36,758 nt of DNA from a bacterium (GTDB lineage Bacteria; Zixibacteria; MSB-5A5; WJJR01), in assembly GCA_035559435.1 (NCBI GenBank), contig DATMBC010000064.1, positions 1 through 36,758 on the forward strand. The letters are read 5' to 3'. Each line of letters opens with the position of its first letter. Positions within the stretch are counted from its first letter, which is position 1. The notes beneath the pieces are model-generated. The model searched no databases. It worked only from the letters and a program-made list of their open reading frames with translations, and was not told where the DNA came from. The translations under genes were made by a program, and so were the position numbers. This document shows positions 3,194 through 26,212 of the stretch, one piece after another.

Positions 3194-6100
3194 CTAGAAC
3201 CGCCAGGCGCCGACCGGCTGATCGCCCGCGTTGCCCGAAACAAACGAGAGCAACTTGGCGATATCCGCCGCGTCGTTGTCGCCATCGGCGTCCACGTCGC
3301 CCGAGTAGGCGGCGGGATAGATGTAGTTGCCGCCCTGCAGCCAGCAGACGTCGGCGAGGTCGACCAGACCGTCATCGTTGACATCGCCGCGCGCGTAACC
3401 CGCCCAGCGGGCGGCGCGCTTGGCCAGACCCAACGCGCCGGCTTCGATCGTCGCCGCGTTGTTCGAGCTGGCATCGATGCCAAAGAGGGCCATGGCGTGT
3501 TCCGCCGAGCCGCTCGGGGCCAGACTGATGCTCTCCACCGACAGCGCAGATTTGTCCGCCGGCGAGGCCACTTCAATCGTGAAGCCCGACTGGGCGTTGA
3601 CGTACCCGTACAGGAAGTTCAGGTCGTTGGTGAACGGGCCGGGGTAGACGGTCAACGGGTTGTCGATAATGCGCGCCGCCAACAGCGGATTGGCCGTCGG
3701 ATCGACACTCGCATACAGCGACGGCTGGCGCACGCTCAACAAGCCGTACGCGTTGCCCGGAGCCGCCTGATCCCAGATGAAATACCCGTTCAGCGCCGGT
3801 GAAGCCACGCCGACGTTGGTGTTGTAGTCGGCCGTGACATCCCAGTCCATGAACTCGCCGAACTTGATGTTCTTGGCCACCGCGTCCCGGTTCTCGATCG
3901 CCACATGGATCAGCTTGAAATCGCCGTACAGAGGATCGTACGAGCCGACCTCGGTCAGGACGATGTTCGTGCCGACTGCGGCCTTCGGAGTGCCGGCGGT
4001 CGCGGCGGTGTTGGTGTCGGCGAAGCCGGTGATCAGGATTTCGCCGTGGATGTCCACCGGCGTGCCGGGGCAGCCGCCGGTACGGTAGGCGCCCAGAAGC
4101 ACATCGGCGAACTTGTCGACCCCGCAGACCGTGCTCGGGGCCGGGTTGGCCACGAACAGATCCGTGTGATCATAGAACTCGGCATGGATACGAGCGCCGC
4201 CGTCCGGAGCCGGTCCGGCCAGCGAGTCCGCCATCAGGATGAACCCGCCGTCGTAGAGGTTGGTCTCCGAATCGTTCGGATCGCCGTCCCACACCAGGTC
4301 GTCGCCATGCTGGTCGGACAGACCGCCCGTGTTGTAGACGTTCTCGAGGTGGTGTCCGGCCACGGTGGAATCGGACGTGTTGAACAGCAGGCGCTTGTTG
4401 GCATCCGCGCAGCCGCCGACGTAGTGGATGGTGAAAAACGCCGTCGGGCTGCCATCATAGTTGAAGTCCGGATCGTCCATGTCGATCTCGAGGATTTCGT
4501 CATCGAGACCGCGGCCCAGTCCGGTGCCGTCGTAGGTCCAGTCGAGACCCGCGTTGCTGCCCGCCGCCAGCGAGGTCGGCACGGGCGCGCCGTTGATCAG
4601 GACATTCGACGTGCGAACGATGTTGGCGCCGGCCGCCATCGAACGCGCGCGGTCACGGCTCGACGAGGACGCGAGAAGCTCCTCGTTGGCCGCGATCATG
4701 CGCGCCTCGGTCGCCGACCACTCGCCGTCCACCAGCTCGTTGGTCACACCCGCCAGGCGCTGACGCTTGGTCGGATTGTCGATCGCGTAGCTGGTGTAGC
4801 CGTCCAGGTTCGCCGAGGCGGCCTGTACGCCGTTGCGGAAGTCGCGCGCATTGCGCGAGGCGATCGTCGCCGCCACGCCGTCCGGAAGCGGATCGGCGAT
4901 GTTCAGCGCCGTGAAGTTCAGCGGCTGGTCGCCGATGTTCATGAACACATCGGCTTCGCTGTGCGTGAGGCCGGAGCCGGAGTTGAGCGGCACCTCGACG
5001 GTCACCTCATGCAGGCACTGGATCAGACGCGGACGCGAACCGGCGTTCAACTGATACGCGGAGATGCGGCCGCCCAGACCAAGCAACTGACGGATGCCCA
5101 CCACGGCGTAGCTGTCGCCCAGGGAAGACGTCGCCAGCGCAGTACCGTTGATGATTTCGCCGCCGGTAATGAACGGGAACTCACGGTACCACTCAATACC
5201 GCCGTCTTGGGCATTGAACAACCACCAGCGGCCGTTGCGGTCGCCGGCGAACAGGTACGCGTCGCACGACAGCGTGACAATCTGCGGCACCATGAACAGC
5301 GACACGCCGCAGAGGTTCTCGGCCGCGAAGTTACGCGCCGCCAGACCGAGGTCCTTGTTCACCTGCAGGATGCCGAAGTTCGGGTTGTCCAGCGGGAAGT
5401 ACACGAAGTTGCGGCCGATCGTCGGCGTGCCATACAGGCCCGTGCCCTGCGAGCTTGTCCACACCACGGACGGCGCCACGCCGGACTTGTCGATCTTGTA
5501 ACGGTAGCCGATGTTGTTGGCGTCCTTGGTCGCGCCGTAGAGGAAGTCGCCTTCCACCGAGACGCCCGAAGGCCAGCCCTCACCCGGCACCCCGACAAAG
5601 TTCCAGTCGATCGCGCCGGTTGCGGCATCGATCTGGTACAGCGAACCGGCCACGTTCGAGCCGCCGATCGCCGTGCCCACATACAACTTGCCACCGCTGA
5701 CCGCGGGACCGTGCTTGGCCCCCACGTCCAGCATCACCGGATTGGTCGCCCAGCCCGGATACAACGCGCCGGTGGCCGCATCGAGCGCATAAATCGCGCC
5801 CGCGCCCGCCGCCGGCTCGGTGCAAACGATCAGAACCGAGGTTCCCGCGATGTCAATCACCTTCGAGGTGTTGAAGCGGTTCTGGTGGATCAGGGGGGTG
5901 TTCCCCGGGTTCTTCGACCAGATCGTCGGCGAGGCCTCGAGGTTGGTCTCCAACGCCGAAACGGCGTTGAATGATCCACCGGTGGCAAACACGACATCAC
6001 GGCCCAGGGCATTGACATAGGCCACGGTGGTGTTGCCGCGGTTCGAGGAACCCATCTCCGGCGCGCCCTGCAACTGGGCGATGAAGGCGCCCGTGTTCAG

Positions 6101-7744
6101 ATTGTAGGCGCGCACTTCCTGGTCGGAGGAGATGTAGACGATGTCGTTGTGAACGCTCGGGTTGGTGAAGTTGGAGACGCGCGGCAGGGGCTGCGTCCAG
6201 GACAACGTCACCTGGTTCGGATCGCCCACATTGATGGACGAGGCCGAGGTCTGCTGCGCATCATGGGCAAACTGCGACCACTGGTCCGGTCCGCCCGCGC
6301 CGCAATCCACTTCAACCGCCGGCAACTCCTCGCGGCAGATGTCGAACTCAAAGAGCAGTTCGCGGTGCGACGCCGACACTTCGCCGATGTAACGCCACTC
6401 GTTCAACGCCGGCTGGAAGCGGGCGATGGAACGATAGTACGACGGATCGCAACCCGTCACCGGGCCCGACCCCAGCACGCCGTTGGTCGTGCCGGTTCCC
6501 GGAACTACCTGCAGCGTCACAAACACATGCTGCACCGGGCCGCCGTTGAGCGTGCCCCAAACAAACGGAGTCGTCAGCGCCCAGGTATTGAAGAAACCGG
6601 GCGACCAGGCCGCCTCCGGAATCACTTCCGAATACAGCAGAGTGCCCGGGAAGGCCGGACGGGGCAGGCCGCAGGGCGATGGCGGACCATCGTTCGCGTA
6701 GATGCCCAACAGGAGGTCGGCCTTGTCGGCGATCGAGCCGCCATTCATGGCAAACGTGACCGCGTTCAGGGTGTCCAGACCGGTCGCGGAGAGGCGCACG
6801 CCGAGGATGTCGCGCCCGCCGCCCACGCCCGACGGCAGCCCAAAGGCCGCGTCGATCGCTGCGTTCGGATCATAATAGAGCTCGGTCGCGCAGTTGCCCG
6901 GCGTGCAATGCGTCGCCGGATCGTCCGGGGTGTAGCCTTCCGACCAGGTCAGGTTCGTCAGATCGAACCCAGGGCCGAAGTTGGCTTCCCAGAACTGATC
7001 CATGTCCAACCAGCCCGAGCCATACTCGTTCCACTGGGAACAGTAGTTGGCGCCCGGGGCGTGGTGGCCGGCGCCCGAACCGCCGTCAGTGCCGATACGG
7101 ATCGTGCCGGAGCCAAAGGTCGGAGAGTACCACGCCGCGTAGTACGGACCGCTCTGGCAGCACTCAATCGTAAACGGCAGGTTGATAAGGAAGAACCCGC
7201 TTCCCGTCCAGGTGATCGAGTAGGACGGGCCGGCGCACAACGCACCACCGGCCACCGGCGCCGGCTCCTGCGTGCACATCGGGTCCGCCGAAGGCGATGC
7301 CACGGCGAACACCAGCGGCTGCATCACGATCGTAAACGGGAACGGTCCGGCGGTGTTGCCGATGATCGTGTTGACTGCCGTCACGTCGAACGAGGGGCTG
7401 TTCGAACAGACCGCGCCAAAACGCGCCGGATCCTGCGGGTCCTGGTAACCGGCATAGAATTCGCTGCCGAAGTACCAGTTGCTGATCCCGTAGGTCAGCG
7501 GACCCTGATACTGGCCGTCGCAAAACGTCCCGGGGACGGTGCGGTTTTGACCCGCATTCACCGTCACCACCGGGTCGGCAATCGACGCGCCCAGGATCGG
7601 TGTGCCAGTTTTGCTCCCGCTGCCGCCAAACGCCTTGATCGGGGGCTCGCCCGGCTGACCCGGATGGTCAAGGGCAAATCCCGATGGAGACGTCAACAAC
7701 AGCAGTCCGAGAGCCAGAACTGCAGTGAAGAGTTTTTTGTGCAT
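3194..7744 (-). CDS. Giant secreted propeller/dockerin-like protein, copy 1
   Basis: This 1,516-residue protein starts with a signal peptide (MHKKLF, hydrophobic core, cleavage near residue 24). The start is fixed by AGGAGGA (complement of 7753-7759), 8 bases before ATG. Residues about 30-480 are a Cys-rich region of unknown fold. Residues about 485-895 form PQQ/WD-like beta-propeller blades, with phrases such as DIVYISSDQEVRAYNLNTG, KLYVGTAIGG and SLYQIDAATGAIDW. Residues about 900-1450 are unassigned beta-rich sequence. Residues 1452-1516 form a dockerin-like pair of calcium-binding repeats (GDVNDDGLVDLADV, GDVDADGDNDAADI) ending PVGAWRF. There is no T9SS tag. The propeller carries no recognisable catalytic signature. 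It is a tandem paralogue of the 8396-12985 gene, sharing promoter, leader and most of the propeller. The role is inferred to be extracellular structure or binding through the dockerin-like end. Confidence 0.85.
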   Translation of the reverse strand: MHKKLFTAVLALGLLLLTSPSGFALDHPGQPGEPPIKAFGGSGSKTGTPILGASIADPVVTVNAGQNRTVPGTFCDGQYQGPLTYGISNWYFGSEFYAGYQDPQDPARFGAVCSNSPSFDVTAVNTIIGNTAGPFPFTIVMQPLVFAVASPSADPMCTQEPAPVAGGALCAGPSYSITWTGSGFFLINLPFTIECCQSGPYYAAWYSPTFGSGTIRIGTDGGSGAGHHAPGANYCSQWNEYGSGWLDMDQFWEANFGPGFDLTNLTWSEGYTPDDPATHCTPGNCATELYYDPNAAIDAAFGLPSGVGGGRDILGVRLSATGLDTLNAVTFAMNGGSIADKADLLLGIYANDGPPSPCGLPRPAFPGTLLYSEVIPEAAWSPGFFNTWALTTPFVWGTLNGGPVQHVFVTLQVVPGTGTTNGVLGSGPVTGCDPSYYRSIARFQPALNEWRYIGEVSASHRELLFEFDICREELPAVEVDCGAGGPDQWSQFAHDAQQTSASSINVGDPNQVTLSWTQPLPRVSNFTNPSVHNDIVYISSDQEVRAYNLNTGAFIAQLQGAPEMGSSNRGNTTVAYVNALGRDVVFATGGSFNAVSALETNLEASPTIWSKNPGNTPLIHQNRFNTSKVIDIAGTSVLIVCTEPAAGAGAIYALDAATGALYPGWATNPVMLDVGAKHGPAVSGGKLYVGTAIGGSNVAGSLYQIDAATGAIDWNFVGVPGEGWPSGVSVEGDFLYGATKDANNIGYRYKIDKSGVAPSVVWTSSQGTGLYGTPTIGRNFVYFPLDNPNFGILQVNKDLGLAARNFAAENLCGVSLFMVPQIVTLSCDAYLFAGDRNGRWWLFNAQDGGIEWYREFPFITGGEIINGTALATSSLGDSYAVVGIRQLLGLGGRISAYQLNAGSRPRLIQCLHEVTVEVPLNSGSGLTHSEADVFMNIGDQPLNFTALNIADPLPDGVAATIASRNARDFRNGVQAASANLDGYTSYAIDNPTKRQRLAGVTNELVDGEWSATEARMIAANEELLASSSSRDRARSMAAGANIVRTSNVLINGAPVPTSLAAGSNAGLDWTYDGTGLGRGLDDEILEIDMDDPDFNYDGSPTAFFTIHYVGGCADANKRLLFNTSDSTVAGHHLENVYNTGGLSDQHGDDLVWDGDPNDSETNLYDGGFILMADSLAGPAPDGGARIHAEFYDHTDLFVANPAPSTVCGVDKFADVLLGAYRTGGCPGTPVDIHGEILITGFADTNTAATAGTPKAAVGTNIVLTEVGSYDPLYGDFKLIHVAIENRDAVAKNIKFGEFMDWDVTADYNTNVGVASPALNGYFIWDQAAPGNAYGLLSVRQPSLYASVDPTANPLLAARIIDNPLTVYPGPFTNDLNFLYGYVNAQSGFTIEVASPADKSALSVESISLAPSGSAEHAMALFGIDASSNNAATIEAGALGLAKRAARWAGYARGDVNDDGLVDLADVCWLQGGNYIYPAAYSGDVDADGDNDAADIAKLLSFVSGNAGDQPVGAWRF

Positions 7745-8179
7745 TTAATAAGTCCTCCTGAGTCAGAACTCAGATGTGAAGCTTCGTCAGGTTTCCTGCC
7801 GCCAGCCGCCGTCCGCCCCACAGCGCCCCCACCTCAGGGACGCCATGTTCCGGTTTTCGGCCTTTCCCGCTGTCTGTCGAGTCGCTCTCGGCGACGGTGA
7901 CCTTTACCAAGACTTCCGCAGACTCCCGGACCAAACCGTCGATCACCCACGATGTGATCAATCTGAAGTTGGGCCCGAAACGCCTGCTCGTGAATTCGTT
8001 GGTTCTGCGACTTGGCTCAGTCGCGGCGATGGGATCAGGCTGAAAACGACCGGGAGGAGGAGATAAAACAACCCAGTCGCTCTTGCGCCTTTCCCTCGCG
8101 GAAAGGGAGCACCGTTCGGATGGGATAGTTTTTCGAAGAGTCACCGACGGTTCGTGACGCCGCCAGCTTCAAACGCTCG
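7745..8179 (-). promoter_or_regulatory. Conserved 435-nt 5' leader of copy 1
   Basis: This is the untranslated stretch between the inferred transcription start (near 8179) and the ATG at 7744. It is closely repeated upstream of the second paralogue; about 190 well-aligned bases (7843-8031) differ at about 10 positions. Three stems recur in both copies: 8088-8094/8100-8106; 8007-8012/8019-8024; and 7758-7763/7768-7773, which takes in the last two bases of the Shine-Dalgarno complement (7753-7759). The first stem is rebuilt in the other copy with shifted base pairs, and the second keeps its stem while its loop changes, which favours RNA structure. Short overlapping frames exist but do not end alike in the two copies. 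Confidence 0.65.
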
Positions 8180-8185
8180 GGAAAG

Positions 8186-8213
8186 AAGATAAGATAGCAT
8201 CAGCATCTGTCAA
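8186..8213 (-). promoter_or_regulatory. Sigma70-like promoter of copy 1
   Basis: On the minus strand, TTGACA (8208-8213), a 16-base spacer and TATCTT (8186-8191). The identical hexamers and spacing occur before the paralogue at 13424-13451 although the spacer sequences differ, which strongly supports function. Confidence 0.75.
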
Positions 8214-8283: not shown

Positions 8284-8310
8284 CTATAAGCTCCCGCTCA
8301 CGGGCTGCAC

Positions 8311-8386
8311 AAAAAATGGGCAAAAAGAAGGGGGGGAAGGCCGAAGCCTTCCTCCCCTTGGCCGAACGGCGTTCCCGAAGGAACGC
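8311..8386 (-). terminator. Terminator region of copy 2
   Basis: Two hairpins follow the stop at 8396. The first reached is a 7-bp stem (8369-8375/8380-8386). The second is a strong stem (8331-8341/8346-8357, one bulge) with a TTCG tetraloop on the minus strand, followed by two T-rich tracts (complement of A-runs at 8322-8326 and 8311-8316). Confidence 0.85.
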
Positions 8387-8395
8387 TTGATGCCT

Positions 8396-11300
8396 TTAGA
8401 ACCGCCAGGCGCCGACCGGCCGATCGGCCGCATTGCCTGACACGTACGAGAGCAACTTCGCGATGTCGGCCCCGTCGTTCAGACCGTCGTTGTTCACGTC
8501 GCCGGAGTAGGCAGCCGGATAGATAAAGTTGCCACCCTGGAGCCAGCAAACGTCGGCCAGGTCGACCACGCCGTCATCGTTCACGTCGCCGCGCGCAAAG
8601 CCCGCCCAGCGGGCGGCACGCTTGGCCACGTCGGCGGCATTGGCTTCGATGACCAGCGGATCGTTGCTGGAGGCATCAACGCCAAAGACCGCCTGATGGA
8701 TCGCCGCGGACCCGTTCGGACCGAGACTGAACGGCTTGTTCACCAGCAGGCCCGATTTGTCCTCGTTGGTGGCGGGGTTGTGAATCTCCCGCGGACCGCC
8801 ATGCACCAGTTGCGACCAGACGGTCTGCAACTTGGAATCGGAGCCCATATCCCACGGCGCCGGGTCATAGACGTCGTTCGGGTTCGACAGGATCCAGATC
8901 TTGTGCGGAGAATCGAACGTCGGATCGACACCCGCGTACGTCGACGGCATGTTCGGGTTGAGCCAGCCATAAGCGATCGTGCCCACCGGACGCGACCAGA
9001 TGGCATAGCCGTTGAACACGTCGGAGACGATACCCATGTTGTCGGTCCCGGCGTTGACGTCCCAGTCGCAGAAGGTGCCGGCATGGATCGGGCCCTTGGC
9101 GACTGCATCACGGTTGGTCATCTCCCAACGGATCAACTTGAAGTCGCCATACAGCGGATCGTAGGCGCCCACTTCGGTCATCACAATATCCAGACCGATC
9201 GCGGCACCCGGCGTCCCCGGCGTGGCGGCAAAGTTGGTGTCGGAATAGGAGGCAATGACCTTCTCCCCATGAATGTCAACCGGCGTGCCCGGGCAGCCAC
9301 CGTCGCGATAGGCGCCGAGGACCACGTTGGTGACGTTATCGAAGCCGCAGGCACCCGAGGTCGGGGCGACGTTCGGCACGAAACGCTCCTGGTTGCCAAA
9401 CATGTCCATAAAGATCTGGGCGCCGTAGTCCGGGGCCGTCCCACCCGCCACGGAGTCGCCGGCAACAATCAGGGTGCCGTCAAACAGGTCGGCTCCCGGA
9501 CCAGTGGCGTCAGCAGCGAACAACCACTCGTCGCCGCCGTCGTCGCCGAGGGCGCCGTGGTTGAAGACCGTCTCGTAACTGCCGTCATTGTTGAAGGTTA
9601 GCGTGTCCTCAGCAAAGACGCAGCCGCCCTGATAAAGGATGTGGAATGTAGCCACCGGCGATCCGTCGAAGTTGAAATCCGGATCGTTCATGGTCAGCTC
9701 AATGTCATTGGCATCAGCGCCACGCCCCAGACCGGTACCGTCAAAGGTCCAGTCCAGACCCGCACTGCCGGCCGGCGCGATCGTCGTTGGGACCGGCGCG
9801 CCGCCAACCAACACGTTGGAGGTACGGATCATCGCGGCACCCGCCGCCATCGAGCGCGCGTCATTGCGGGTCGACAGCAGACTCTCGTTCGACGCCATGG
9901 CCGCCACTTCGCTGGTCATGAATTCACCGTCGACCTTGTCGGCGGTCAGCCCGGCCAGACGCTGGGCTTTCGTGAAGCCGGTGGTGAGGTAGTTGGTGTA
10001 GCCATCATATCCCGCTGTGGCAGAATTGATTGCCGTGCGGAAATTGATCGCGTCGCGCCGAGCGGAAGCCATGCCATCCGGGAGCGGATCGACGATGTTC
10101 AACGCGGTGATATTCAACGGCATGTCGCCGATGTTCATGAAAACATCGGACACGCTGTATGGATTCCCCGGGCCGGCGCCCAGCGGAACGACAACCGTCT
10201 CGTCGGTCTTGCACTGGATCAAACGCGGACGGGGACCGGCATTCAGCTTGTACGCCGAAACACGTCCACCCAGGCCGAACAACTGACGGATGCCGACCAC
10301 GGCGTAGCTGTCGCCCAGAGATGAGGTCGCCAGAGACGTGCCATTGACGATCTCTCCGCCGGTAATGAAGGGGAACTCGCGATACCACTCGGGCAACCCC
10401 GTCATGGCGTTGAACAACCACCAGCGGCCATTGCGATCGCCGGCGAACAGGAAGGCATCGCACGACAGCGTCACCGTCTGCGGAATCATGTAAACCGATA
10501 CGCCGCAGATGTTTTCGGCCGCGAAGTTGCGAGCCACCAAACCGAGGTCCTTGCTAACCTGCAAGAGGCCATAGCTGGGGTTGTCCAGCGGGAAGTACAC
10601 GAACCCACGGCCGATCGTCGGCGTGCCATACAGGCCGACACCCTGCGTGTTTGTCCAGACCACGGACGGAACCGCGCCGGAGACGTCGATCTTGTAGCGA
10701 TAGCCGAGGTTGTTGGCGTCCTTCGTGGCGCCATAGACGAAGTTGCCTTCGGTCGAAACACCCGACGGCCATCCTTCACCCGGGATGCCCACGAAGTTCC
10801 AGTCGATCGTGCCGGTTGCGGCATCGATCTGGTACAGCGAACCGGCCACGTTCGAGCCGCCGATCGCCGTGCCCACGTACAACTTACCGCCGTTGACCGC
10901 CGGGCCATGCTTGGCCGCCGCGTCCAGAATTACGGGGTTGGTCGCCCAGCCCGGATACAGGGCGCCGGTGGCCGCGTCGAACGCGTAGATCGCGCCGTTG
11001 CCGGCCGCTGGCTCGGTGCAGACAAACAGAACCGAGGTCCCGGCAATATCCACGACCTTGGAGGTGTTGAAGCGGTTCTGATGGATCAGGGGTGTGTTCC
11101 CCGGGTTCTTCGACCAGATCGTCGGCGAGGCCTCCAAGTTGGTCTCCAACGCCGAAATCGCGTTGAACGATCCGCCAGTGGCAAACACGACATCACGGCC
11201 CAGGGCATTGACATAGGCCACGGTGGTGTTGCCGCGGTTCGAGGAACCCATCTCCGGCGCGCCCTGCAACTGGGCGATGAAGGCGCCTGTGTTCAGATTG

Positions 11301-12985
11301 TAGGCGCGCACTTCCTGGTCGGAAGAGATGTAGACGATGTCATTGGCAATCGTCGGGTTGGTGAAGTTGGTCACGCGTGGCAGGGGCTGCGTCCAGGACA
11401 ACGTGACTTGATTGGGATCGCCCACATTGATGGACGAGGCCGAGGTCTGCCGCGCATCATGGGCAAACTGCGACCACTCGTCCGGTCCGGCCGAGGCGCA
11501 GTTTGATTCGATTGCCGGCAGAACTTCACGGCAGATCAAAGCGTCCCACACGAACTCGAAATTGCCGCCCGGCGTGCCGGAATAGTAGTTCCGCTCGCTG
11601 GTGTAGAGCCACTTCGGTCCAAGTGTCCCATCGTAATTCGGGAAAAAGAGCACCGAATGGCTTTCGTCAGGAGCCGGGAGGCATCCGGTCGTCGTCACCG
11701 GATCACCGGCCGGGAAGCCCGTGCCGTCACCAGCGGCCACGCCGCAGGTTACAAAGAAGTCGACCGTCGGTCCGCCGTTAAGCGTTCCGAAGACCAGATC
11801 GGGCAGCGGAACCACCGTCATCATCGGGTAGACGGTCGTAACGCCCGTCACCACAGTCGAATAGACCAGCGTGCCCGGGGTCGGCAGACCGCACTCAGGC
11901 GACGGGGGCCCGTCACCCAACCACACCTCGATCAGCAGATCGTCGGCACCCGGAGCGCCCGGATTGTACCGCAGAATCTGGATCTCCTTGAGGGTGTCGG
12001 CGCCAACCGCTTGGAAGCGAACGCCGGCCTTGGTGCGGCCGCTGTGAGAGCCCGACGGAATCGGGAAGTAAGTCGACCAATCGTCGTTGCCATCCACGAA
12101 ACGGCGCGCTTCGCCATCCGTGGCGCACGTGCTGGTCGGCGACGAGCAGGTGTACCAGAATTCGTAGGAGCAAGTGCCTGGCGTGCAATGCGTTGCCGGA
12201 TCGTCCGGGGTGTAGCCCTCGGCGAACACGATGTGCTCGAGGTTGTACGGTCCCGGAGAAGGCCAGGTGAAGTACTTGGACAATTCGTCCCAGCCGGTGC
12301 CGTAATCGTTAAACACGCCGCACGTGGCGCCCATCGGGCTGGCGTAACCGCCGTCGCAGCCCAAACGCAACGCGCCCGCGGTCGGAGCATAGTAGCCGGC
12401 GAAGAACGGCCCGCTCACGCAGCACTCGACCGGGAAGGGCATGTTGAAGAGATAGGTGGCCGCGGCGCCAAACGTCAGGCTATACAGCGGACCAGAACAC
12501 TGAATGCCGCCCGCCACCGGGGCCGGGGCAATGGCGCACTCCGCAGTGGAGGACACGCCGAAGACCAGCGGCTGGAAGGCAAAGGTGGCTGGGAACGGGC
12601 CGGCCGAAAACCGAAACACCGCGTTGGTTGCCGTGACGTCAAAGGACGGCGAGTTGGAACAGGTGCCGTTCCAACGGGCGGGATCCGACGGATCCTGATA
12701 GGCGGCGTAGAACTCATTGCCCGCATACCAGCCACCGACACTGTACGTGTAGGCACCCTGCCACCAACCGTCGCAGAATGTCCCCGGTACCGTGCGGTTC
12801 TGTCCGCCGTTCACCGTCACCAACGGGTCGGCCGAGACCTCGGGTGTCGGAGTAAATGCGGCCTTGCTCAGCCCGTTGCCGTAGACCTTGACCGGGACCT
12901 CGATCGGGCTGTCCGACGCGAAGACCGGCGTGGTCGCCAGCAACAAGGCGAGAGCCAGAACTGCAATGAAGAGTTTTTTGTGCAT
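8396..12985 (-). CDS. Giant secreted propeller/dockerin-like protein, copy 2
   Basis: This 1,529-residue paralogue of the 3194-7744 protein has the same order: signal peptide (residues 1-23, MHKKLFIAVLALALLL), a Cys-rich N-terminal region (about 25-500) clearly diverged from copy 1, a PQQ/WD-like propeller (about 500-915) almost identical to copy 1, an unassigned region, and a dockerin-like C-terminus (about 1465-1529: GDVNDDGVVDLADV, GDVNNDGLNDGADI, then PVGAWRF). The start is supported by AGGAGGA 8 bases upstream, and the whole start region matches copy 1. Conservation is mosaic: 110 bases (11178-11287 against 5982-6091) are identical, while the N-terminal third differs in length and sequence. 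That suggests gene conversion in the propeller or diversifying change in the N-terminal part. The function is unknown; a secreted, calcium-dependent binding protein is a reasonable inference. It may be transcribed separately from copy 1, since each has its own promoter. Confidence 0.85.
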   Translation of the reverse strand: MHKKLFIAVLALALLLATTPVFASDSPIEVPVKVYGNGLSKAAFTPTPEVSADPLVTVNGGQNRTVPGTFCDGWWQGAYTYSVGGWYAGNEFYAAYQDPSDPARWNGTCSNSPSFDVTATNAVFRFSAGPFPATFAFQPLVFGVSSTAECAIAPAPVAGGIQCSGPLYSLTFGAAATYLFNMPFPVECCVSGPFFAGYYAPTAGALRLGCDGGYASPMGATCGVFNDYGTGWDELSKYFTWPSPGPYNLEHIVFAEGYTPDDPATHCTPGTCSYEFWYTCSSPTSTCATDGEARRFVDGNDDWSTYFPIPSGSHSGRTKAGVRFQAVGADTLKEIQILRYNPGAPGADDLLIEVWLGDGPPSPECGLPTPGTLVYSTVVTGVTTVYPMMTVVPLPDLVFGTLNGGPTVDFFVTCGVAAGDGTGFPAGDPVTTTGCLPAPDESHSVLFFPNYDGTLGPKWLYTSERNYYSGTPGGNFEFVWDALICREVLPAIESNCASAGPDEWSQFAHDARQTSASSINVGDPNQVTLSWTQPLPRVTNFTNPTIANDIVYISSDQEVRAYNLNTGAFIAQLQGAPEMGSSNRGNTTVAYVNALGRDVVFATGGSFNAISALETNLEASPTIWSKNPGNTPLIHQNRFNTSKVVDIAGTSVLFVCTEPAAGNGAIYAFDAATGALYPGWATNPVILDAAAKHGPAVNGGKLYVGTAIGGSNVAGSLYQIDAATGTIDWNFVGIPGEGWPSGVSTEGNFVYGATKDANNLGYRYKIDVSGAVPSVVWTNTQGVGLYGTPTIGRGFVYFPLDNPSYGLLQVSKDLGLVARNFAAENICGVSVYMIPQTVTLSCDAFLFAGDRNGRWWLFNAMTGLPEWYREFPFITGGEIVNGTSLATSSLGDSYAVVGIRQLFGLGGRVSAYKLNAGPRPRLIQCKTDETVVVPLGAGPGNPYSVSDVFMNIGDMPLNITALNIVDPLPDGMASARRDAINFRTAINSATAGYDGYTNYLTTGFTKAQRLAGLTADKVDGEFMTSEVAAMASNESLLSTRNDARSMAAGAAMIRTSNVLVGGAPVPTTIAPAGSAGLDWTFDGTGLGRGADANDIELTMNDPDFNFDGSPVATFHILYQGGCVFAEDTLTFNNDGSYETVFNHGALGDDGGDEWLFAADATGPGADLFDGTLIVAGDSVAGGTAPDYGAQIFMDMFGNQERFVPNVAPTSGACGFDNVTNVVLGAYRDGGCPGTPVDIHGEKVIASYSDTNFAATPGTPGAAIGLDIVMTEVGAYDPLYGDFKLIRWEMTNRDAVAKGPIHAGTFCDWDVNAGTDNMGIVSDVFNGYAIWSRPVGTIAYGWLNPNMPSTYAGVDPTFDSPHKIWILSNPNDVYDPAPWDMGSDSKLQTVWSQLVHGGPREIHNPATNEDKSGLLVNKPFSLGPNGSAAIHQAVFGVDASSNDPLVIEANAADVAKRAARWAGFARGDVNDDGVVDLADVCWLQGGNFIYPAAYSGDVNNDGLNDGADIAKLLSYVSGNAADRPVGAWRF

Positions 12986-13417
12986 TTAATAAGTCCTCCT
13001 GAGTCAGAACTCAGATGTGAAGCTTCGTCAGGTTTCCCGTCGCCCGCCGTCCCCGTCCCATGTCGCCCCCACCTCGGGGCGCCATGTTCCGGTTATCGGC
13101 CATTCCGGCTGTCTGTCGAGTCGCTCTCGGCGACGGTGACCTTTACCAAGACTTCCGCAAACTCCCGGACCAAACCGTCGATCACCCACGATGTGACCAA
13201 TCTGAAGTTGGGTCCGATACGCCTGCTCGTGAATTCGTTGGTACTGCGACTTCACTCAGTCGCGGCGATGGATGACGGCCAAATCGACACGGGTAGGAGG
13301 AAATAAAACATCCCGCTCGGTTTACCGCCCTTTCCTCGCGAAAGGGAGCACCGTTCGGATGGGATTGTATTTCGAAGAGTCACCTGCGGTTCGTGACGCC
13401 GCCGGCTTCAAACGCTC
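12986..13417 (-). promoter_or_regulatory. Conserved 432-nt 5' leader of copy 2
   Basis: This is the counterpart of the 7745-8179 leader, running from the inferred start near 13417 to the ATG at 12985. Stems at the equivalent places are 13328-13334/13340-13346, 13246-13251/13258-13263 and 12999-13004/13009-13014; the last abuts the Shine-Dalgarno. The first stem has CCCTTTC/GAAAGGG where copy 1 has CCTTTCC/GGAAAGG, so pairing is kept despite base changes. Confidence 0.65.
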
Positions 13418-13423
13418 GACCCC

Positions 13424-13451
13424 AAGATACCCATCCCGCCCGACCTGTCAA
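13424..13451 (-). promoter_or_regulatory. Sigma70-like promoter of copy 2
   Basis: TTGACA (13446-13451), 16 bases and TATCTT (13424-13429) on the minus strand, the same as for copy 1. The spacer here is GC-rich (GGTCGGGC...), unlike that of copy 1, so conservation is focused on the hexamers. Confidence 0.75.
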
Positions 13452-15363: not shown

Positions 15364-15795
15364 ATGTCTTTTAATTTCAAATACTTACCCGATGTGGCCC
15401 TCGCTGATGTCGCCTTCGAGGTCGAGGCGGACACATGGCAGGACCTGCTGGCCGGCGCGGCGGTCGCCACCACCGGGGTCATGGTCGATCTGAGCACCGT
15501 GATGCCCAGTCGGACACGCCATGTCGACTTGGTCGCCGATTCGCTGGAGTCGCTCGTGTATGACTGGCTGAGCGAGCTGGTCTATCTCAAAGACACCGAA
15601 GGACTTTTCGGACGCGACTTCAGCTTCGATGGCGGCGAGGCCCATGGCTGGCAAGTTACTGCGCACATCGTCGGCGAAACCATCGATCGCAAACGGCATC
15701 TGCTGGGACAAGATGTTAAGGCGGTGACCCTGCACCTGTTTGAAGCAGGAATTCAGAATGGCCGCTATCATGCCCGTGTGGTCCTGGATATATGA
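15364..15795 (+). CDS. Archease, protein cofactor of the RtcB ligase
   Basis: This 143-residue protein starts at ATG 15364; a TTG at 15322 would add a 14-residue, low-complexity extension through a hairpin and is less likely. The archease fold is recognisable from ADVAFEVEADTWQDLLAGAA near the N-terminus, SLESLVYDWLSELVYL in the middle (about residues 61-76), and GETIDRKRHLLGQDVKAVTLH near the C-terminus (about 103-123), whose D, H and K pattern is conserved. Archease activates RtcB for guanylylation and multiple turnover. The usual HTAD motif appears as ALAD, so the His is absent while the metal-binding Asp is kept. The stop codon overlaps the rtcB start by 4 bases (ATGA), which implies translational coupling and a shared role. 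Confidence 0.88.
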   Translation: MSFNFKYLPDVALADVAFEVEADTWQDLLAGAAVATTGVMVDLSTVMPSRTRHVDLVADSLESLVYDWLSELVYLKDTEGLFGRDFSFDGGEAHGWQVTAHIVGETIDRKRHLLGQDVKAVTLHLFEAGIQNGRYHARVVLDI

Positions 15796-17267
15796 CAACA
15801 GCTTCCGCCCATTACCTCCGTGAAATGGCACGTCCGGTCCGTCCCGGTGTCTGGGAAATCCCGCCTGAAGCCAAACCCGGGATGCTGGTTCCGGCACGGA
15901 TCCTGGCCTCATCGACGCTCTTCCAGACTATGGACGACGGCGTCTTCAATCAACTGACCAACGTTGCCTGCCTTCCCGGTATCCGCAAGTATGCCATCTG
16001 CATGCCCGATGGCCACTGGGGATATGGCTTCCCGATCGGCGGGGTGGCGGCCTTCGACCCGGACCAAGGAGTGATCTCGCCCGGAGGCATCGGCTTTGAC
16101 ATCAACTGCGGCATGCGTCTTCTGCGCACCAACCTCACCGAATCCGAGGTCCGTCCCCGTCTGGCGGCGCTGATGGACGAGTTGTACTCGCGTGTGCCCT
16201 GTGGAGTAGGCTGTAAAGGCGTTTTAAGGCTTTCTGAGCGCGAATATCGGGACGTGATGATATCCGGTGGGGGTTGGGTCGTAAAACGCGGCTACGGCCG
16301 TTCTGACGATTTGGAGCACACCGAGGAACGTGGCGCCATCCCCGGCGCCAACCCCGACAAAGTCTCCGATCGGGCGGTCAAGCGGGGTCTCGACCAGCTG
16401 GGCACCCTCGGCTCCGGCAATCACTACCTCGAAGTCCAAGTGGTTAAACAGGAAAACGTCTATGACTGGGGGGTGGCCCGCGCCTTCGGCATCGACCGGC
16501 CCGACCAGATCTGCGTCATGGTCCACTGCGGGTCCCGCGGTTTCGGCCATCAGATCGCCACCGACTACCTGAAGACCTTCCTGCCAGTCATGAGTCGTTA
16601 CGGTATCCGTACCGGCGACAAGGAGTTGGCCTGCGCGCCTTTCACCGATCCCGCCGGGGCCGACTACTTCGCCGCCATGAACTGCGCCGCCAATTCCGCC
16701 TTCGCCAACCGGCAGATGATCACTCACCTGATTCGCGAGTCATTCGCCAAGGTGTTCGGCAAGAATGACATAACGCTTGGGCTTGAAGTTGTCTACGATG
16801 TCGCCCATAACATTGCCAAGCTGGAAGAATATGAGATTGATGGAGTTAAGCAGAAACTCCTCGTTCATCGCAAAGGAGCAACCCGCTCGTTCGGGCCGGG
16901 ACGCGGCTACCTGCCGCAAGACTATGTCGATATTGGACAGCCGGTTATCGTCGGAGGCTCGATGGAAACCGGCTCCTACCTCCTCCTGGGCACCAACGTC
17001 GCCATGCAGGAAACCTTCGGCTCCACACTCCATGGCTCCGGACGCACCATGTCCCGCTCCAGAGCCAAGGAGATGATCCGTGGCGACAAACTGAAGCAGT
17101 CGATGCTGGACCGCGGCATCGTCATCCGTGCTGCCTCCCTCTCCGGCCTGGCCGAGGAGGCCGGTTTCGCCTACAAAGACATCTCCGAGGTTGTGGCCAC
17201 CGTCCACGACTTGGGCATCTCCACACGCGTCGCCCGCCTGATCCCGATCGGCAACCTCAAGGGTTAG
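15792..17267 (+). CDS. rtcB: RtcB RNA-splicing ligase (3'-phosphate/2',3'-cyclic phosphate)
   Basis: This 491-residue protein has all the RtcB hallmarks. DINCG (residues 103-107) supplies the bridging Cys106. GSGNHY gives His211, VHCGSRGFGH gives His245 and DVAHN gives His339 as manganese ligands. LHGSGR contains His414, the residue expected to be guanylylated. HRKGATRSFGPGR and GGSMETGSYLL are the other nucleotide-binding blocks. RtcB joins RNA 3'-phosphate or 2',3'-cyclic phosphate ends to 5'-hydroxyl ends using GTP and Mn2+. In bacteria it is linked to RNA repair and tRNA or rRNA healing. The length is typical (about 480). It overlaps archease by 4 bases, the classic operon for this pair. 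No RtcR regulator or RtcA cyclase is present here. A short hairpin at 17283-17302 follows, without a T-run on this strand. Confidence 0.95.
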   Translation: MTTASAHYLREMARPVRPGVWEIPPEAKPGMLVPARILASSTLFQTMDDGVFNQLTNVACLPGIRKYAICMPDGHWGYGFPIGGVAAFDPDQGVISPGGIGFDINCGMRLLRTNLTESEVRPRLAALMDELYSRVPCGVGCKGVLRLSEREYRDVMISGGGWVVKRGYGRSDDLEHTEERGAIPGANPDKVSDRAVKRGLDQLGTLGSGNHYLEVQVVKQENVYDWGVARAFGIDRPDQICVMVHCGSRGFGHQIATDYLKTFLPVMSRYGIRTGDKELACAPFTDPAGADYFAAMNCAANSAFANRQMITHLIRESFAKVFGKNDITLGLEVVYDVAHNIAKLEEYEIDGVKQKLLVHRKGATRSFGPGRGYLPQDYVDIGQPVIVGGSMETGSYLLLGTNVAMQETFGSTLHGSGRTMSRSRAKEMIRGDKLKQSMLDRGIVIRAASLSGLAEEAGFAYKDISEVVATVHDLGISTRVARLIPIGNLKG

Positions 17268-17365: not shown

Positions 17366-20300
17366 TTACTTCACCAGGGTCATCTTCTTGGTCGCGCTGA
17401 AGCCATTGGCTTCCACACGGTAGAAGTAGACGCCCGACGAAGCATGGTCGCCGGCGATGGTGGTGCCATCCCAGGAGACATTGACGCGTCCCGCGGCGCT
17501 GTGACCGGCGAACGAGCGGACGGTCTGGCCGGTGACGTTGTAGATCGTCACGGACCAGTCGGCGTCGTTGGCCAGGTCAAAGGACATCACCGTACCCGCG
17601 TTGAACGGGTTCGGATAGTTCTGCAGCAACGCGTACTCGGTCGGCACGACCGCCTTGGCGGCCGAGGTCGACATGAGCGCGCCACGAGCATCCGACATCT
17701 GCACTTCGGTCAGCTCGATCGAACCCTCGCCCGAAGTCGGGATCGAGAGGATCTCACGAGTGCCGGCGCCGATGCTGGCCAGCTCGCCGTTCCAGGACGG
17801 GTGAACGAGAACGCGCAGTTCGGAGCCGTTGGCGGTGTAACGCAGGTTCATGCCTTCGGCGCCGGAGAGCAGCATCGGCTCGCCCGTCGACAGACCGCTG
17901 TAACGGAAGACCAACAGGGCGCCGCCCAGGTCGACGCTCGAGGAGGTCGACACGGTGACGCTGTTGTTCTCCACCCGCACCGTGGCCGTGCCCGAGTTGG
18001 CGTACGGCGACAGCTTCGGCGAACCGGTGCCGGTTCCCGGCGGGAACGGCTGCTCGTCACCGGTGATGATGCGGATCAGGTAAATCAGGTCCGCCACGGT
18101 GAGAACGACGCCGTCGTTGTTGATGTCGGTGGCGAGGATCTGGACTTCGTCCCACACCGGATCCCACACCGACGATCCATACACGAAGTAGTTGATGAAC
18201 AACACCGCGTCACCGACCTCGTTGGCCAGGCCGTTGAGGTTGATGTCGCCGCGATCATCCGGCGGCTCGTCGATGCAGATACGGCCCGGGCAGAACTCGA
18301 TGATGTCACGAGCGGCCTGCTTGGTCGGGTCGATGCAGTCGGTCGGCGAACCGATCGGGATGAACAGGGTGTCGCCCGACTTGGACGACAGGGCGTTGTC
18401 GCCGCAATCCAGCACGCAGAAGCCCACGTTGAAGCACTGGTTGATGAAGTTGCGGTCGGAGGTGACCTGGAAGTTCAATCCCACGACACGGCCGTCGAGA
18501 TAGAACGACGCGTCCGGAGGATGCAACGCCGGACCGTTGTCCAGATCAGCGATCGCCACGACGCGGATGTAGCCGCTCGGGCACGAACCCGCGCAGTTGC
18601 CCGCCGGGCTGTGACGATAGGTGAAGTATTCCCAATCCGCCATCTCGTCGACCGGGAAGGCCTCGAGGAAGGACAGACCGGAAGGATCGTAGCAGATCAG
18701 CAGATCGATACCGCCCAACGGATAGGTGTTGGACAAGGTGACATAGGCGGTCGCAATCTGGCCGTTGAGCGTGTGAATGTTGGCCGAATCGAGGCCCGAG
18801 CGGATGCACAGGGCATACGAGAGCACGTCGATCTGGAAGCAGCATTCATCAACGCCGCCGCAACCGTCTTCCACGCGGATGCAGGCTTCCCACAGGCCGG
18901 CGTCGTTGTTATCAGCCGACGAGGTCTGCCAGGAGAAGTTGCCGGCCGCGTCAACGGACGGAGCGTTGTGCGGAGCGCCCTGGCCTTCCAGCGCCGTGAA
19001 CGACACCAGCGAGAAGGTCAAGGGGTTGCCCGCCGGGTCGACGGCCGAAGCCGCCGCCGAAACCAGGTCGCCCAAAACCGCGAACTGGTCGTCCGGGCAG
19101 GTGATCGCCGGCGCCGCATTGGTCACCGTGATGTTGAACGAGCAGGTGTCAGCCTTCTCGCCGTCAGAGACGCGGACGGTGAAGGTGATCGGGCCCTTGA
19201 CCACATCGGCGCAGGCCGGATCGAAGGTCAGCACATTGCCCGCCACGAAGGCCGGATTGGCCGGAGCCGGGACCGCGGAGAGAAGCGTCCACGAAAGCGG
19301 ACCGATACAGCCATCGTCGGTGGCGGTCAGCGTGTAACCGGCCGCCGGAGCGTTCCAGTCCACCGACGCATCCGACGGGCAGGTGGCCACCGGAGCGTTC
19401 TGGAACACCGTCACCTGGAAGCTGCAGTCGACGAAGTCGCAACCGTCGCTGATGCGGAAGGTGACCGTGTGCACGCCGACGTCAGCGCAAACAGTCTGCC
19501 AGTTGAACACGCCCGACGCGCTCACCGTGGCCGGACCCACGTTCGCCGGAGCAATCGAAACCAGCGAGTAGGTGACCGGGTTGCCGTTCGGGTCGGAACC
19601 GTTGAGCTGCTTGTTGTTGACGCCTGCCATGAAGTACACGTTCTCGGGGTTGTTGGTGCCGCAAACCGGAGCGGTGTTGGTCACCGTCAGGTTGAACGTG
19701 CAGTCAACCGACGCGCCGCAGGGATCGGTGGCGCGGAAGGTGACGACGTGGGCGCCCTTGTCGGCGCAGACCGCCGAGTAGGTAAACACACCAGACGGGG
19801 AGACAGCCGCGGCGCCAGCCACCGGCGGGACGATCGAGACGAGCGAGTAAGTCAGCGCGTCGCAAGCGTCTGGGTCACTGGCACTTAGCTGCTTGTTCAC
19901 CGAACCGGTGAAGTTCACAGACTCGTCGGGATTCGTGCCGCAAATCGGCGCCTGGTTCTCGAGCGGAAATTCGCCGCGGAACCAGTCGAACGGCCCATAT
20001 TCGCAGCAGTCGCAGCCCATCACAACAAAGGCTCCGGCCGGCGGATAAAAGGCGGTGTCGATCACGATAGTGCCTTGGCAGTCTGCAGGGGTCTGAACAG
20101 TCAGATTCCAAATGCCGGAATACGTCCCCGCGGGGAGGCATCCGCCAGTGAAATTCAAGACACCAGAGGTCCCCGGGAACCCGCCCACGGCCGTCGTAAA
20201 GCCGGCCAGGTCAGGACCAGGAGCCGCCGCCAGAATCGTGGCGCCACCCGTGATCGTCAGGGGCAAACCCCAGGCGCCCAACGGGCTGGTGATGTCCAAG

Positions 20301-20455
20301 AAAATCGGAACCTGGACTGTGGCGCAACGCGGCAGACCCTGGGATTGTGCCCCACCGGGTGTACCGACGTGACCACTGCTCGCGGCAAAGGCGAAACCGG
20401 TCGAGACGAGTACGACGAGACAAACGCTCGCCAATACCATGAGTCTATGTTTCAT
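17366..20455 (-). CDS. Giant surface protein: Ig-like repeats, cohesin-like, dockerin-like, T9SS tag
   Basis: This 1,029-residue protein has a signal peptide (MKHRLMVLASVCLVVLVSTG, cleavage near residue 24). AAAGGAG (complement of 20465-20471) lies 9 bases before the ATG; a second GGAG adjoining the start is too close to be the ribosome site. A Cys-rich N-terminal beta domain (about 30-165) is followed by about five Ig/cadherin-like repeats (about 165-575), each with an APxCxTNP- or CPxD-type opening and a TFNLTVTN-like closing strand. A cohesin-like domain follows (about 590-740, TAYVTLSNTYPLGGIDLLICY). Next come dockerin-like repeats (about 760-830, GDINLNGLANEVGDAVLFIN and TDINNDGVVLTVADLIYLIR), and last a T9SS type A sorting domain (about 945-1029, LLQNYPNPFNAGTVM to KKMTLVK). 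It should be exported by T9SS and held at the cell surface. The partner or ligand is unknown. Confidence 0.85.
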   Translation of the reverse strand: MKHRLMVLASVCLVVLVSTGFAFAASSGHVGTPGGAQSQGLPRCATVQVPIFLDITSPLGAWGLPLTITGGATILAAAPGPDLAGFTTAVGGFPGTSGVLNFTGGCLPAGTYSGIWNLTVQTPADCQGTIVIDTAFYPPAGAFVVMGCDCCEYGPFDWFRGEFPLENQAPICGTNPDESVNFTGSVNKQLSASDPDACDALTYSLVSIVPPVAGAAAVSPSGVFTYSAVCADKGAHVVTFRATDPCGASVDCTFNLTVTNTAPVCGTNNPENVYFMAGVNNKQLNGSDPNGNPVTYSLVSIAPANVGPATVSASGVFNWQTVCADVGVHTVTFRISDGCDFVDCSFQVTVFQNAPVATCPSDASVDWNAPAAGYTLTATDDGCIGPLSWTLLSAVPAPANPAFVAGNVLTFDPACADVVKGPITFTVRVSDGEKADTCSFNITVTNAAPAITCPDDQFAVLGDLVSAAASAVDPAGNPLTFSLVSFTALEGQGAPHNAPSVDAAGNFSWQTSSADNNDAGLWEACIRVEDGCGGVDECCFQIDVLSYALCIRSGLDSANIHTLNGQIATAYVTLSNTYPLGGIDLLICYDPSGLSFLEAFPVDEMADWEYFTYRHSPAGNCAGSCPSGYIRVVAIADLDNGPALHPPDASFYLDGRVVGLNFQVTSDRNFINQCFNVGFCVLDCGDNALSSKSGDTLFIPIGSPTDCIDPTKQAARDIIEFCPGRICIDEPPDDRGDINLNGLANEVGDAVLFINYFVYGSSVWDPVWDEVQILATDINNDGVVLTVADLIYLIRIITGDEQPFPPGTGTGSPKLSPYANSGTATVRVENNSVTVSTSSSVDLGGALLVFRYSGLSTGEPMLLSGAEGMNLRYTANGSELRVLVHPSWNGELASIGAGTREILSIPTSGEGSIELTEVQMSDARGALMSTSAAKAVVPTEYALLQNYPNPFNAGTVMSFDLANDADWSVTIYNVTGQTVRSFAGHSAAGRVNVSWDGTTIAGDHASSGVYFYRVEANGFSATKKMTLVK

Positions 20456-20933
20456 TCTCCTTTGCTCCTTTACGTTGTCTCACTTGCAAGGATGTCAGTC
20501 AGAGAGCGGGACTGACTTGGGTGTGCTTCAGCGATAGCCGGACTCGGCTAACGCAAAGCCGCACAAGAGCTTCTTATAACCGCTTGCGGGAATCTATTGG
20601 TAAAGGAATCCTACTGGGCGTAGGTCACCGCGGGTTCGAAATCACGACGTTTCAAACCGAAGTCGGTGTTCGAGATTGTGGCACAGCAATTAAGCAGTCA
20701 GCAAGACCGCTTAGCACGTGCTGGCAGAATACAACTTTTTTGCGGTTAGTCAACACTTTTTTTGAAAATCCGCCTCGAAGCACAAGCTTGGATCCCCGGC
20801 CAAGACCGCCAAATCAACAGACGCTCCCACCCTCCGACCCGCTCCCGCTGTCCGCTTTCTCGGAACCGTTTCGGTCGATCCATCATTCTCACCTGCCTCC
20901 CCAATAATTCCGGCCGCCGGTGACATTCCGACC
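20456..20933. other. Intergenic region between divergent surface-protein genes
   Basis: This stretch separates the minus-strand gene starting at 20455 from the plus-strand promoter at 20934. It is locally AT-rich, with T-runs near 20735 and 20758. A tRNA-like fragment sits at about 20597-20650: a CCTAC...GTAGG hairpin followed by GGTTCGAAATC. It lacks an acceptor stem and an anticodon arm and is not annotated as a tRNA. I found no convincing -35/-10 pair for the minus-strand gene. Confidence 0.4.
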
Positions 20934-21108: not shown

Positions 21109-21189
21109 AGTGTTGTGCCGTACTCGTGCCGTCGATCGGCTTTACTCCACTATCCTATTGCAAAACAACACGTTCTGGGAGGGCAAGAC

Positions 21190-24100
21190 ATGTGCATCTT
21201 GACTGCGCGCCGACGCCGGTCTGCGTCGTGTTTCTTATCCTATCTGACTGTCCTCGGCTTCCTGTTTCTCACCGTCATTCCCACGGCCGCCAGTGCCGCC
21301 ATCGTCACGACCGACCGGCCGGAATACGCCCCTGGCGAGACCGCGCGGATTCGCGGGGCCGGCTTCGCCCCAGCCGAAGTGGTCACGCTGCAGGTGACCC
21401 ATCTGGATGGCACCCCGGCATCCGGCGAGGGGCATGGTCCTTGGGATGTTCCGACCAATGGCTCCGGCGGCTTCCTGGCCGACTGGACCGTTCCCTATGA
21501 TGACAACGTTAATGAGGAACTGCTGATTTCCGCCACCGGGCAGACATCGGGCATCGCGGCCAGCGTCACGATCCTCGATGCCAACACCCATCTGACTTTC
21601 GTCTCGATTCCGACCTCGGTGCCGCCGAATTCCGGGTTTTCGGTCACGGCGCGCCTGACGCAGGACTGCGGCGGCGATCCCGACGCTCCGTTGCCGGGCC
21701 GCACCATCCTTTTCTTCATCACCGAGGGCAACTGCGGGGTCGATGTCGGACAGAATCCAAACGCGACCGCTGTCACCAATGCCTTCGGCGAGGCGACCGC
21801 CGGTCTCACCGCGCCGGCCGGCGATTTTGCCATGCGCATCAAATTCCTCGGCGAGGACAAGCCCGATCCCTGTCCGACCCCGGGCAACAGCGCCTGCGCC
21901 CCGAACGACCCGAACGCCAACAAGCGCTGCGTCTCACTGTCCAACGGCAATCTCTGTCAGACCATCTCGGCGGTGCCCTGCGATCCGCTGCAGGCGATCT
22001 GTCCGCCGCCGCTGACCGTGGAATGCGAAGCGGAAGTGCCGCCGCCCAGCCCCGGCAGCGTCGTCTGCGACGGGGGTTGCTCGCCGGTGACCACTGTGTG
22101 GGTTGGGGATGGCCCGCTCACCGGCGGTCCCTGCGGCGGCACCATCACCCGCACCTATCGCTGCACCGACGCCATGGGCAACACCGCCGACTGCGTGCAG
22201 ACCATCACGGTCGACGACAACACCGCGCCCTTCTTCGCGCCCGCCTGCTTCCAGTCCAATACGGTGGCTTGCATCAGCCAGGTGCCGCCGCCGGGACTGG
22301 GGGGGATCGGCCCGATCGATAATTGCGATGTGTCGCTTGCGCTCACGCACACCCGCACCGACAACGGCGCCACCGGCTGCCCCGGCGATCCGCGCGTGAT
22401 CACCGACATCTACACCGCCACCGACGACTGCGGCAATGCCGGGCAGTGCACACGGACCTGGACGATCGTCGACGATATCGCGCCGACCATCTCCTGCCCG
22501 CCCGGATTCACGGTCGAATGTCTGGCGGATCTACCGCCGTGCAACCCGGCCGATGCGACCGCTGCGGATAACTGCGGCGCCGTCAGCGTGACCTGCGTCG
22601 ATGGCCCGCTGGTCGGCGGACCCTGCGGCGGAACCGTCACCCGGACCTACACGGCCACCGACGCCTGCGGCAACACCGCCACTTGCGCGCAAGTGATCAC
22701 GATCGACGACACCACGCCGCCTTCGATCGCCTGTCCGCCCGACGAGACGCTGCCCTGCGGCGGCACGCTGCCGCCTTGCGATCCGTTGGCGGCCACCGCC
22801 TCCGACAATTGCGGCGCCCCGGTTGTCACCTGTTCCGAGACGCCCACCGTTGATGGCGTGATCCGCACCTTCACCGCCACTGACGCCTGTGGCAACAGCG
22901 CCAGTTGCAATCAGGTCATCACCTTCACCGATGACACCCCGCCGCAGTTTGTCGACTGCCCGCCGGCGTTCGCGGTGGAGTGTCTGGCCGATCTGCCGCC
23001 CTGTCCGACCAGCATGCCGGTCTTCGACGAGTGCGAAGGGCTGATCGTGGCGCCCGCGGTCTGCAGCGACGGCCCGCTGGTTGGCGGCGAATGCGGCGGC
23101 ACGATCACCCGCACGATCACCGTCACCGACGCCAGCGGCAATGTCGCCACCTGCACGCAGGTGATCACCGTCGACGACAACACGCCGCCCACGCTCACCT
23201 GTCCGCCGTCTGTGACATTGGCCTGCGGCGCGTCGACCGACCCGTCGCAAACCGGCACAGCTTCCGCCGGCGACAACTGCGATCCCAATCCGGCGGTCAC
23301 ATTCACCGACGCGATGGCGCCCGGCGCCTGCCCGCAGTCCTACACCATCACGCGGACCTGGACCGCCGCCGATGCCTGCGGCAACACCGCTTCCTGTGAC
23401 CAGATGCTGACGGTTGTCGATGACGTTGCGCCGGCTATTGTCTGCCCGGCCGACGCGACGGTTGAATGCGGCCAGCCGACCGATCCGGCGGCCACCGGAT
23501 TCGCCACCGCCACCGACGCCTGCGATCCGGCGCCCGCGGTTACATTCACCGACAGCGAGACACCCGGCGCCTGCGCCGCGGAGAAGACGATCACCCGCGT
23601 GTGGACCGCCACCGATGCCTGCGGCAATTCGAGCAGTTGTGTCCAGCTCATCGAAGTGATGGACACCCAGCCGCCGACGTTGACCGCCGGGTGTGGTCCG
23701 GGCGCGCAGTATCAATGCGCGGCCGATGTGCCGCCATTGGCCCCCGGCGCCGCGACGGACAACTGCGACGCCGATGTCACAGTCACCTCGGTGCGCAGCG
23801 ACAACGGCGGAGCCGGTTGCGCCGGTAATCCGTTGGTGGTGACCGACACCTACACCGCCACGGATGACTGCGGCAACACGATGACCTGCACGCGTGTTCA
23901 CACCGTCATCGACAATACGCCGCCCGTGTTCGTCAACGGTTGCGGCGCCAATGCCGCCTACGATTGCCTCGCCGCGGTGCCGCCGCCGGATCTGAGCGTG
24001 CTGGCGACCGACAACTGCGATGGCGCGGCCGTGGTCACGGTGGCGCGCACCTCCAACGGCGGGGCCGGTTGTGTCGGCAATCCGCTGGTCCTCACCGACA

Positions 24101-26182: not shown

Positions 26183-26212
26183 ATCGCAAGACATCGATAG
26201 GGAGGTGTGGAG

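Follow-up and report, generated by a model that had tools for sequence, protein, structure and literature searches.

Translational riboswitches, for example those for preQ1 or of the SAM-II class, hide the Shine-Dalgarno sequence with an anti-Shine-Dalgarno strand. Genes for S-layer proteins, such as slpA of Lactobacillus and slpA of Thermus, have a long structured leader in front of a large surface-protein gene. Here we describe a duplicated leader from Candidatus Zixiibacteriota that has several traits in common with these systems. Like translational riboswitches, it is a leader RNA in which helices exclude one another and one strand is the complement of the Shine-Dalgarno sequence. However, the element matches no Rfam riboswitch, its anti-Shine-Dalgarno strand lies about 300 nt upstream of the Shine-Dalgarno sequence instead of adjoining it, and it is linked to one secreted-protein gene. 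The gene context gives no hint of a ligand, the element being tied to a single gene family. The likeness to S-layer gene leaders is one of description only, organism and protein being unrelated as far as known. The autogenous leaders of ribosomal proteins are likewise structured and bound to one gene, but the product here is an exported propeller protein and not an RNA-binding one. Among the papers searched, none linked Zixibacteria with a riboswitch.

Our main reading, to which we give a probability of about one half, is that the first ~135 nt of the leader are a cis-acting structured RNA, from a family not described so far, by which translation of a giant secreted propeller protein is controlled. 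The window, that is, the whole stretch of 36,758 nucleotides analysed, contains two copies, A and B, with the following features:

8208 to 8213, minus strand: -35 box TTGACA, copy A; the pattern TTGACA-N16-TATNTT is common to 9/9 homologous loci
8186 to 8191, minus strand: -10 box TATCTT, copy A; predicted +1 at or adjoining 8179
13446 to 13451, minus strand: -35 box TTGACA, copy B; shared promoter pattern
13424 to 13429, minus strand: -10 box TATCTT, copy B; shared promoter pattern
8048 to 8179, minus strand: conserved structured RNA element, copy A; 115-126 bits with models R2/R3, covariation
13286 to 13418, minus strand: conserved structured RNA element, copy B; 105-118 bits with models R2/R3
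8132 to 8173, minus strand: P1/P2 hairpin, copy A (P2 8144-8166); two-sided changes in all 7 P2 pairs among 8 sequences
8078 to 8114, minus strand: P3 inner helix and tip, copy A (tip 8088-8106); pair changes between families
8070 to 8122, minus strand: base of P3 (P3o), copy A; competes with P4 for its 5' strand
8048 to 8078, minus strand: P4 hairpin, copy A; mutually exclusive with P3o, 90% of cells paired
8056 to 8061, minus strand: UCCUCC in the P4 loop (anti-Shine-Dalgarno), copy A; invariant in 8/8
13296 to 13301, minus strand: UCCUCC in the P4 loop, copy B; from sequence and Shine-Dalgarno pairing energies
7842 to 8035, minus strand: middle block, copy A; 95% identical to copy B, unconserved across species
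7753 to 7759, minus strand: Shine-Dalgarno sequence AGGAGGA, copy A; precedes gene A
12994 to 13000, minus strand: Shine-Dalgarno sequence AGGAGGA, copy B; precedes gene B
3194 to 7744, minus strand: gene A, 1516 aa; signal peptide, BamB/PQQ-like propeller, dockerin-like C-terminus
8396 to 12985, minus strand: gene B, 1529 aa; tandem paralogue of gene A with the same three parts, 63% protein identity to A

The first-pass annotation had given both propeller genes a TTGACA-N16-TATCTT promoter and a leader of about 430 nt, and this description is accurate. Such sites occur in the window at 8213 and 13451 (minus strand) only, and both leaders measure 433-435 nt from CGAGCG to the ATG. The promoter TTGACA-N16-TATNTT sits 5-6 nt upstream of YGAGCG in all nine homologous loci. 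Transcription is predicted to start about 435 nt from the ATG and not close to it. A BLAST search of the 3.0-Mb genome with the leader region returned the second copy (89% identity over 435 bases) and no third one. Regarding the downstream genes, the product of gene A has a PQQ_2 match of 42.6 bits, and the Pfam Dockerin_1 match stays below the cut-off in copy B, which was the copy tested and is closely similar to A. A structure prediction of the N-terminal domain reached a pLDDT of 44.5, too low for use. The codon adaptation index of the two propeller genes is 0.64 and 0.56, compared with ranges of 0.60-0.75 (ribosomal-protein genes) and 0.39-0.68 (neighbours in the window); these are ordinary values, and high expression is not supported by codon bias. 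Within the propeller domain, codons 500-700 show 92-95% protein identity and raised identity at 4-fold sites in paralogues that are otherwise diverged (82% of 4-fold sites identical in codons 500-600, about 41-66% in most other blocks), which looks like partial gene conversion.

The argument for a regulatory RNA had originally been built on the best-aligned 190 bases of the leader, said to contain about 10 differences next to strongly diverged coding regions. Both observations are correct: the alignment of A and B has 10 differences in about 190 bases (block 7843-8031), and past the signal peptide the coding regions share 40-60% of amino acids over codons 100-500. The argument itself fails, because the block is alike only in the two tandem copies. 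When species of the same genus are compared with the window's own copies, identity is 66-73% in the first ~135 nt and 63-75% in the surroundings of the Shine-Dalgarno sequence, versus 41-48% in the middle block (shuffled control: mean 33%, maximum 41%). We therefore rejected the 190-nt block as functional core, its cross-species identity being near the shuffled level. Judged by these comparisons, the conserved core consists of the 5'-most ~135 nt of the transcript, beginning at the predicted +1. Gene conversion between the tandem copies, the simplest cause, probably produced the middle-block likeness; coding likeness between the copies is patchy in the same manner. A DNA search of 58 related genomes gave short matches only: three relatives match in the leader's 5' part, one of them also close to the start codon, and all of these matches stand before the same propeller gene. 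A further hairpin follows P4 at 7992-8032 (minus strand), and several homologues have one with wholly different sequences. The stem previously placed at 8007-8024 is a hairpin directly 3' of the conserved element, and several relatives fold a hairpin at the same place. The structured region might reach as far as ~185 nt.

Searching related genomes with a covariance model, as had been suggested, led to both homologues and covariation. Six other genomes, from two families within a single order of Candidatus Zixiibacteriota, have a homologue of the element in front of the orthologous propeller gene. Model R1, built from five sequences, found a match in another genus (G004, E 1.4e-9) and a weak match in a different family (G008), each before the orthologous gene, and an eighth copy was found by reading the orthologous site in G007. 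With R2, which was run on 132 genomes of the phylum Zixiibacteriota, the convincing matches were the known loci and a near-identical contig end in G008; no other convincing element turned up elsewhere in these 132 genomes. Weak matches in G002 (contig C119), G035 (contig C147), G104, G108 and G109 align poorly, do not lie upstream of this propeller gene and were treated as chance. The two near-identical contig ends of G008 (L054 and L030, contigs C42 and C47) both have the element; they represent strain variants or else a further tandem copy, as in the window. The held-out test used R3, a model trained on six sequences of a single family: in whole genomes it ranked the elements of the second family top, at the orthologous site, with E-values of 1.9e-4 and 6.0e-4. 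The element lies in the 5' UTR of 8/8 orthologous genes that have upstream sequence, a count outside which stand the orthologues in G003 and G006, as these end at contig edges. It is missing before the divergent paralogues L028, L029 and L033 (in G003, G005 and G006). Rfam 15 at the gathering cut-off gave no match in the window or in the six homologous loci, and at a relaxed E-value the leader gave nothing over the element on the relevant strand. Weak minus-strand Rfam matches at 8306-8392 lie outside the element, within a terminator-like hairpin, and were set aside.

For the analysis of structure, eight sequences from two families were aligned by hand and fitted to the structure (alignment A4). 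In this alignment 92% of cells are paired and 15/32 pairs have two-sided changes; none of 500 shuffles attains any of five measures, and pairing falls to at most 61% when partners are slid by one column. Given A4 without a structure, RNAalifold recovers P2, P3 inner, the tip and P4, with two-sided changes in 17/26 pairs. The alignment was built with the structure in mind, and hence the held-out model search carries more weight. Between families, P3 inner changes from UA to AU and from GC to UG. The stem 8088-8106, described earlier as re-formed in the second copy, corresponds to the P3 tip and is indeed re-paired there. Single-sequence folding of the element yields unremarkable z-scores (0.84 to -2.26), so that folding energy alone would have missed it. 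A candidate 5'-CGUU/AACG pseudoknot consists of bases that scarcely vary, and its partner is missing in G008. Based on these alignments, the 5' part of the duplicated leader is a real structured RNA of a new family, so far seen in one order and with one gene. Since relatives preserve the shape while the letters changed, it is very likely that the element is a regulatory RNA not described before. The original claim of a structured leader RNA of unrecognised type thus stands on covariation, the held-out model search and the lack of an Rfam match, and no longer on the 190-nt block. The stem next to the Shine-Dalgarno sequence is present in the window's own copies and is not conserved.

Comparison also supports two competing helices. 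Columns 102-110 pair either with columns 58-66 (P3o) or with columns 127-135 (P4), and both pairings are supported. For P4, 90% of cells are paired (slid controls at most 59%) and 3 pairs have two-sided changes; for P3o together with P3 inner, 85% of cells are paired (slid controls at most 47%). Support for P3o is below that for P4, with mismatches in several homologues. In G008, C and G at columns 105 and 106 are replaced by U and A, and the partners on both sides are altered correspondingly. The loop of P4 is variable apart from UCCUCC, which is complementary to the AGGAGG Shine-Dalgarno sequence of the gene. The Shine-Dalgarno sequence is the best partner of UCCUCC in 6/8 leaders, and in the other two it is within about 0.5 kcal/mol of the best. 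When the element is folded under constraint, the two states lie within about 7 kcal/mol and the lower state varies; in full-leader folding of B, G001 and G008 they differ by at most about 0.3 kcal/mol. With P3o forced in the full leader, the pairing between Shine-Dalgarno and anti-Shine-Dalgarno reaches 0.38 in B, 0.85 in G001 and 0.93 in G008. In G007 the pair appears in free folding and is absent when P3o is forced, in G005 it forms only with P3o forced, a costly state, and in A, G002 and G004 it is at most 0.05 in any state. With P4 forced, this pairing is impossible by construction, as the programme allows no pseudoknots. Covariation cannot probe the long-range pairing because the Shine-Dalgarno sequence is invariant. 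A switch mechanism is thus plausible and unproven, the long-range pair being predicted by whole-leader folding in part of the homologues, namely B, G001, G007 and G008, and in G005 with P3o forced.

We propose that the P1/P2 hairpin and the P3 inner hairpin would be the constant parts, and that the strand 3' of P3 inner would pair in two exclusive ways, as P3o or as P4. In the OFF state P3o would form and leave UCCUCC free to bind the Shine-Dalgarno sequence ~300 nt downstream, while in the ON state P4 would form and close UCCUCC within the hairpin loop. Some signal acting on the P1-P3 part would set the balance between the two. Sequence comparison establishes that the structure is conserved, that two helices compete, that the loop motif is invariant, that the element sits at the predicted +1 and that it is tied to one gene. 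We infer that the RNA switches, in which direction it controls translation and that a signal exists. We hold only tentatively the more specific idea of a new bistable class of leader RNA, confined to one Zixiibacteriota order, which would sense a signal and, through its long-range anti-Shine-Dalgarno, gate translation of the giant extracellular propeller protein; it might be an orphan riboswitch. An attenuator with an intrinsic terminator, a GC-rich hairpin followed by a U run, is not supported: UUUU directly after P4 was seen in copy A only and not in the other homologues.

Other explanations have to be weighed against translational control by the leader. Hairpins at the 5' end might stabilise or protect the mRNA of a major surface protein by shielding the end, without any switching. 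In 9/9 loci the element follows a strong promoter and lies precisely where the 5' end is predicted, the product is a large secreted protein and a neighbouring surface-protein gene likewise has a long conserved leader, all of which agrees with such a role; however, the ordinary codon bias of both genes does not, and the invariant UCCUCC loop and the two exclusive helices would be left unexplained. We regard pure stabilisation as unlikely, yet as the strongest of these competitors. Somewhat less likely again is a protein-binding leader, autogenous or trans-acting, in which an RNA-binding protein would hold one conformation and set translation, as in ribosomal-protein leaders. Confinement to one gene family, unlike the spread of metabolite riboswitches, would fit this, but no candidate RNA-binding protein was identified and the propeller protein, being exported, is an unlikely autoregulator.

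An RNA thermosensor, in which heat would melt the Shine-Dalgarno:anti-Shine-Dalgarno pairing or P3o and so allow translation, seems improbable to us. Long-range Shine-Dalgarno pairing is plausible in several homologues, but the conserved multi-helix core exceeds what a melting hairpin needs, and the conserved unpaired stretches CGAGCGUU and GACUCUUCGA (within one family) would be equally superfluous. That there is no functional RNA, and that the likeness reflects recent duplication and gene conversion only, accounts for the 190-nt middle block and agrees with the patchy coding likeness of the copies. It is contradicted by the conservation of the first 135 nt and the covariation in six other genomes from two families, and we consider it highly improbable. 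Least credible is a leader that encodes a conserved regulatory peptide for attenuation. Four of the leaders contain a frame starting with GTG that overlaps the element, but it is missing in G004, G005, G007 and G008, has no Shine-Dalgarno sequence and varies in length from 19 to 124 codons; we rejected it on these grounds, the leader encoding no conserved peptide.

Little is known about the cis-regulatory RNAs of uncultured phyla. The leader RNA described here comes with a tested covariance model, a clear design of competing helices and one dedicated target, which makes it directly amenable to reporter or probing tests. The locus also suggests that a large exported protein, a neighbour of cohesin-bearing surface proteins, is subject to control at the RNA level.

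The neighbourhood holds further genes for surface proteins. A type IX-secreted surface protein with an MKHR/MKHK start is encoded at 17366-20455, and its long leader at 20456-20690 (minus strand) is conserved in four relatives (GUGCUGAGCAGUU..AACUGCUU, then UUUCCUUUGCCAAUAGAUUUCC), with a weakly supported consensus structure. An RtcB-family protein is encoded near the leader-bearing genes at 15792-17267 (plus strand), and the same neighbourhood is found in four relatives. At 21115-25839 and 26207-31078 (plus strand) lie the genes for two giant proteins, whose features are HYR repeats, a cohesin domain and type IX sorting signals. The closeness of these cohesin proteins to the dockerin-like propeller proteins points to a possible cohesin-dockerin surface assembly.
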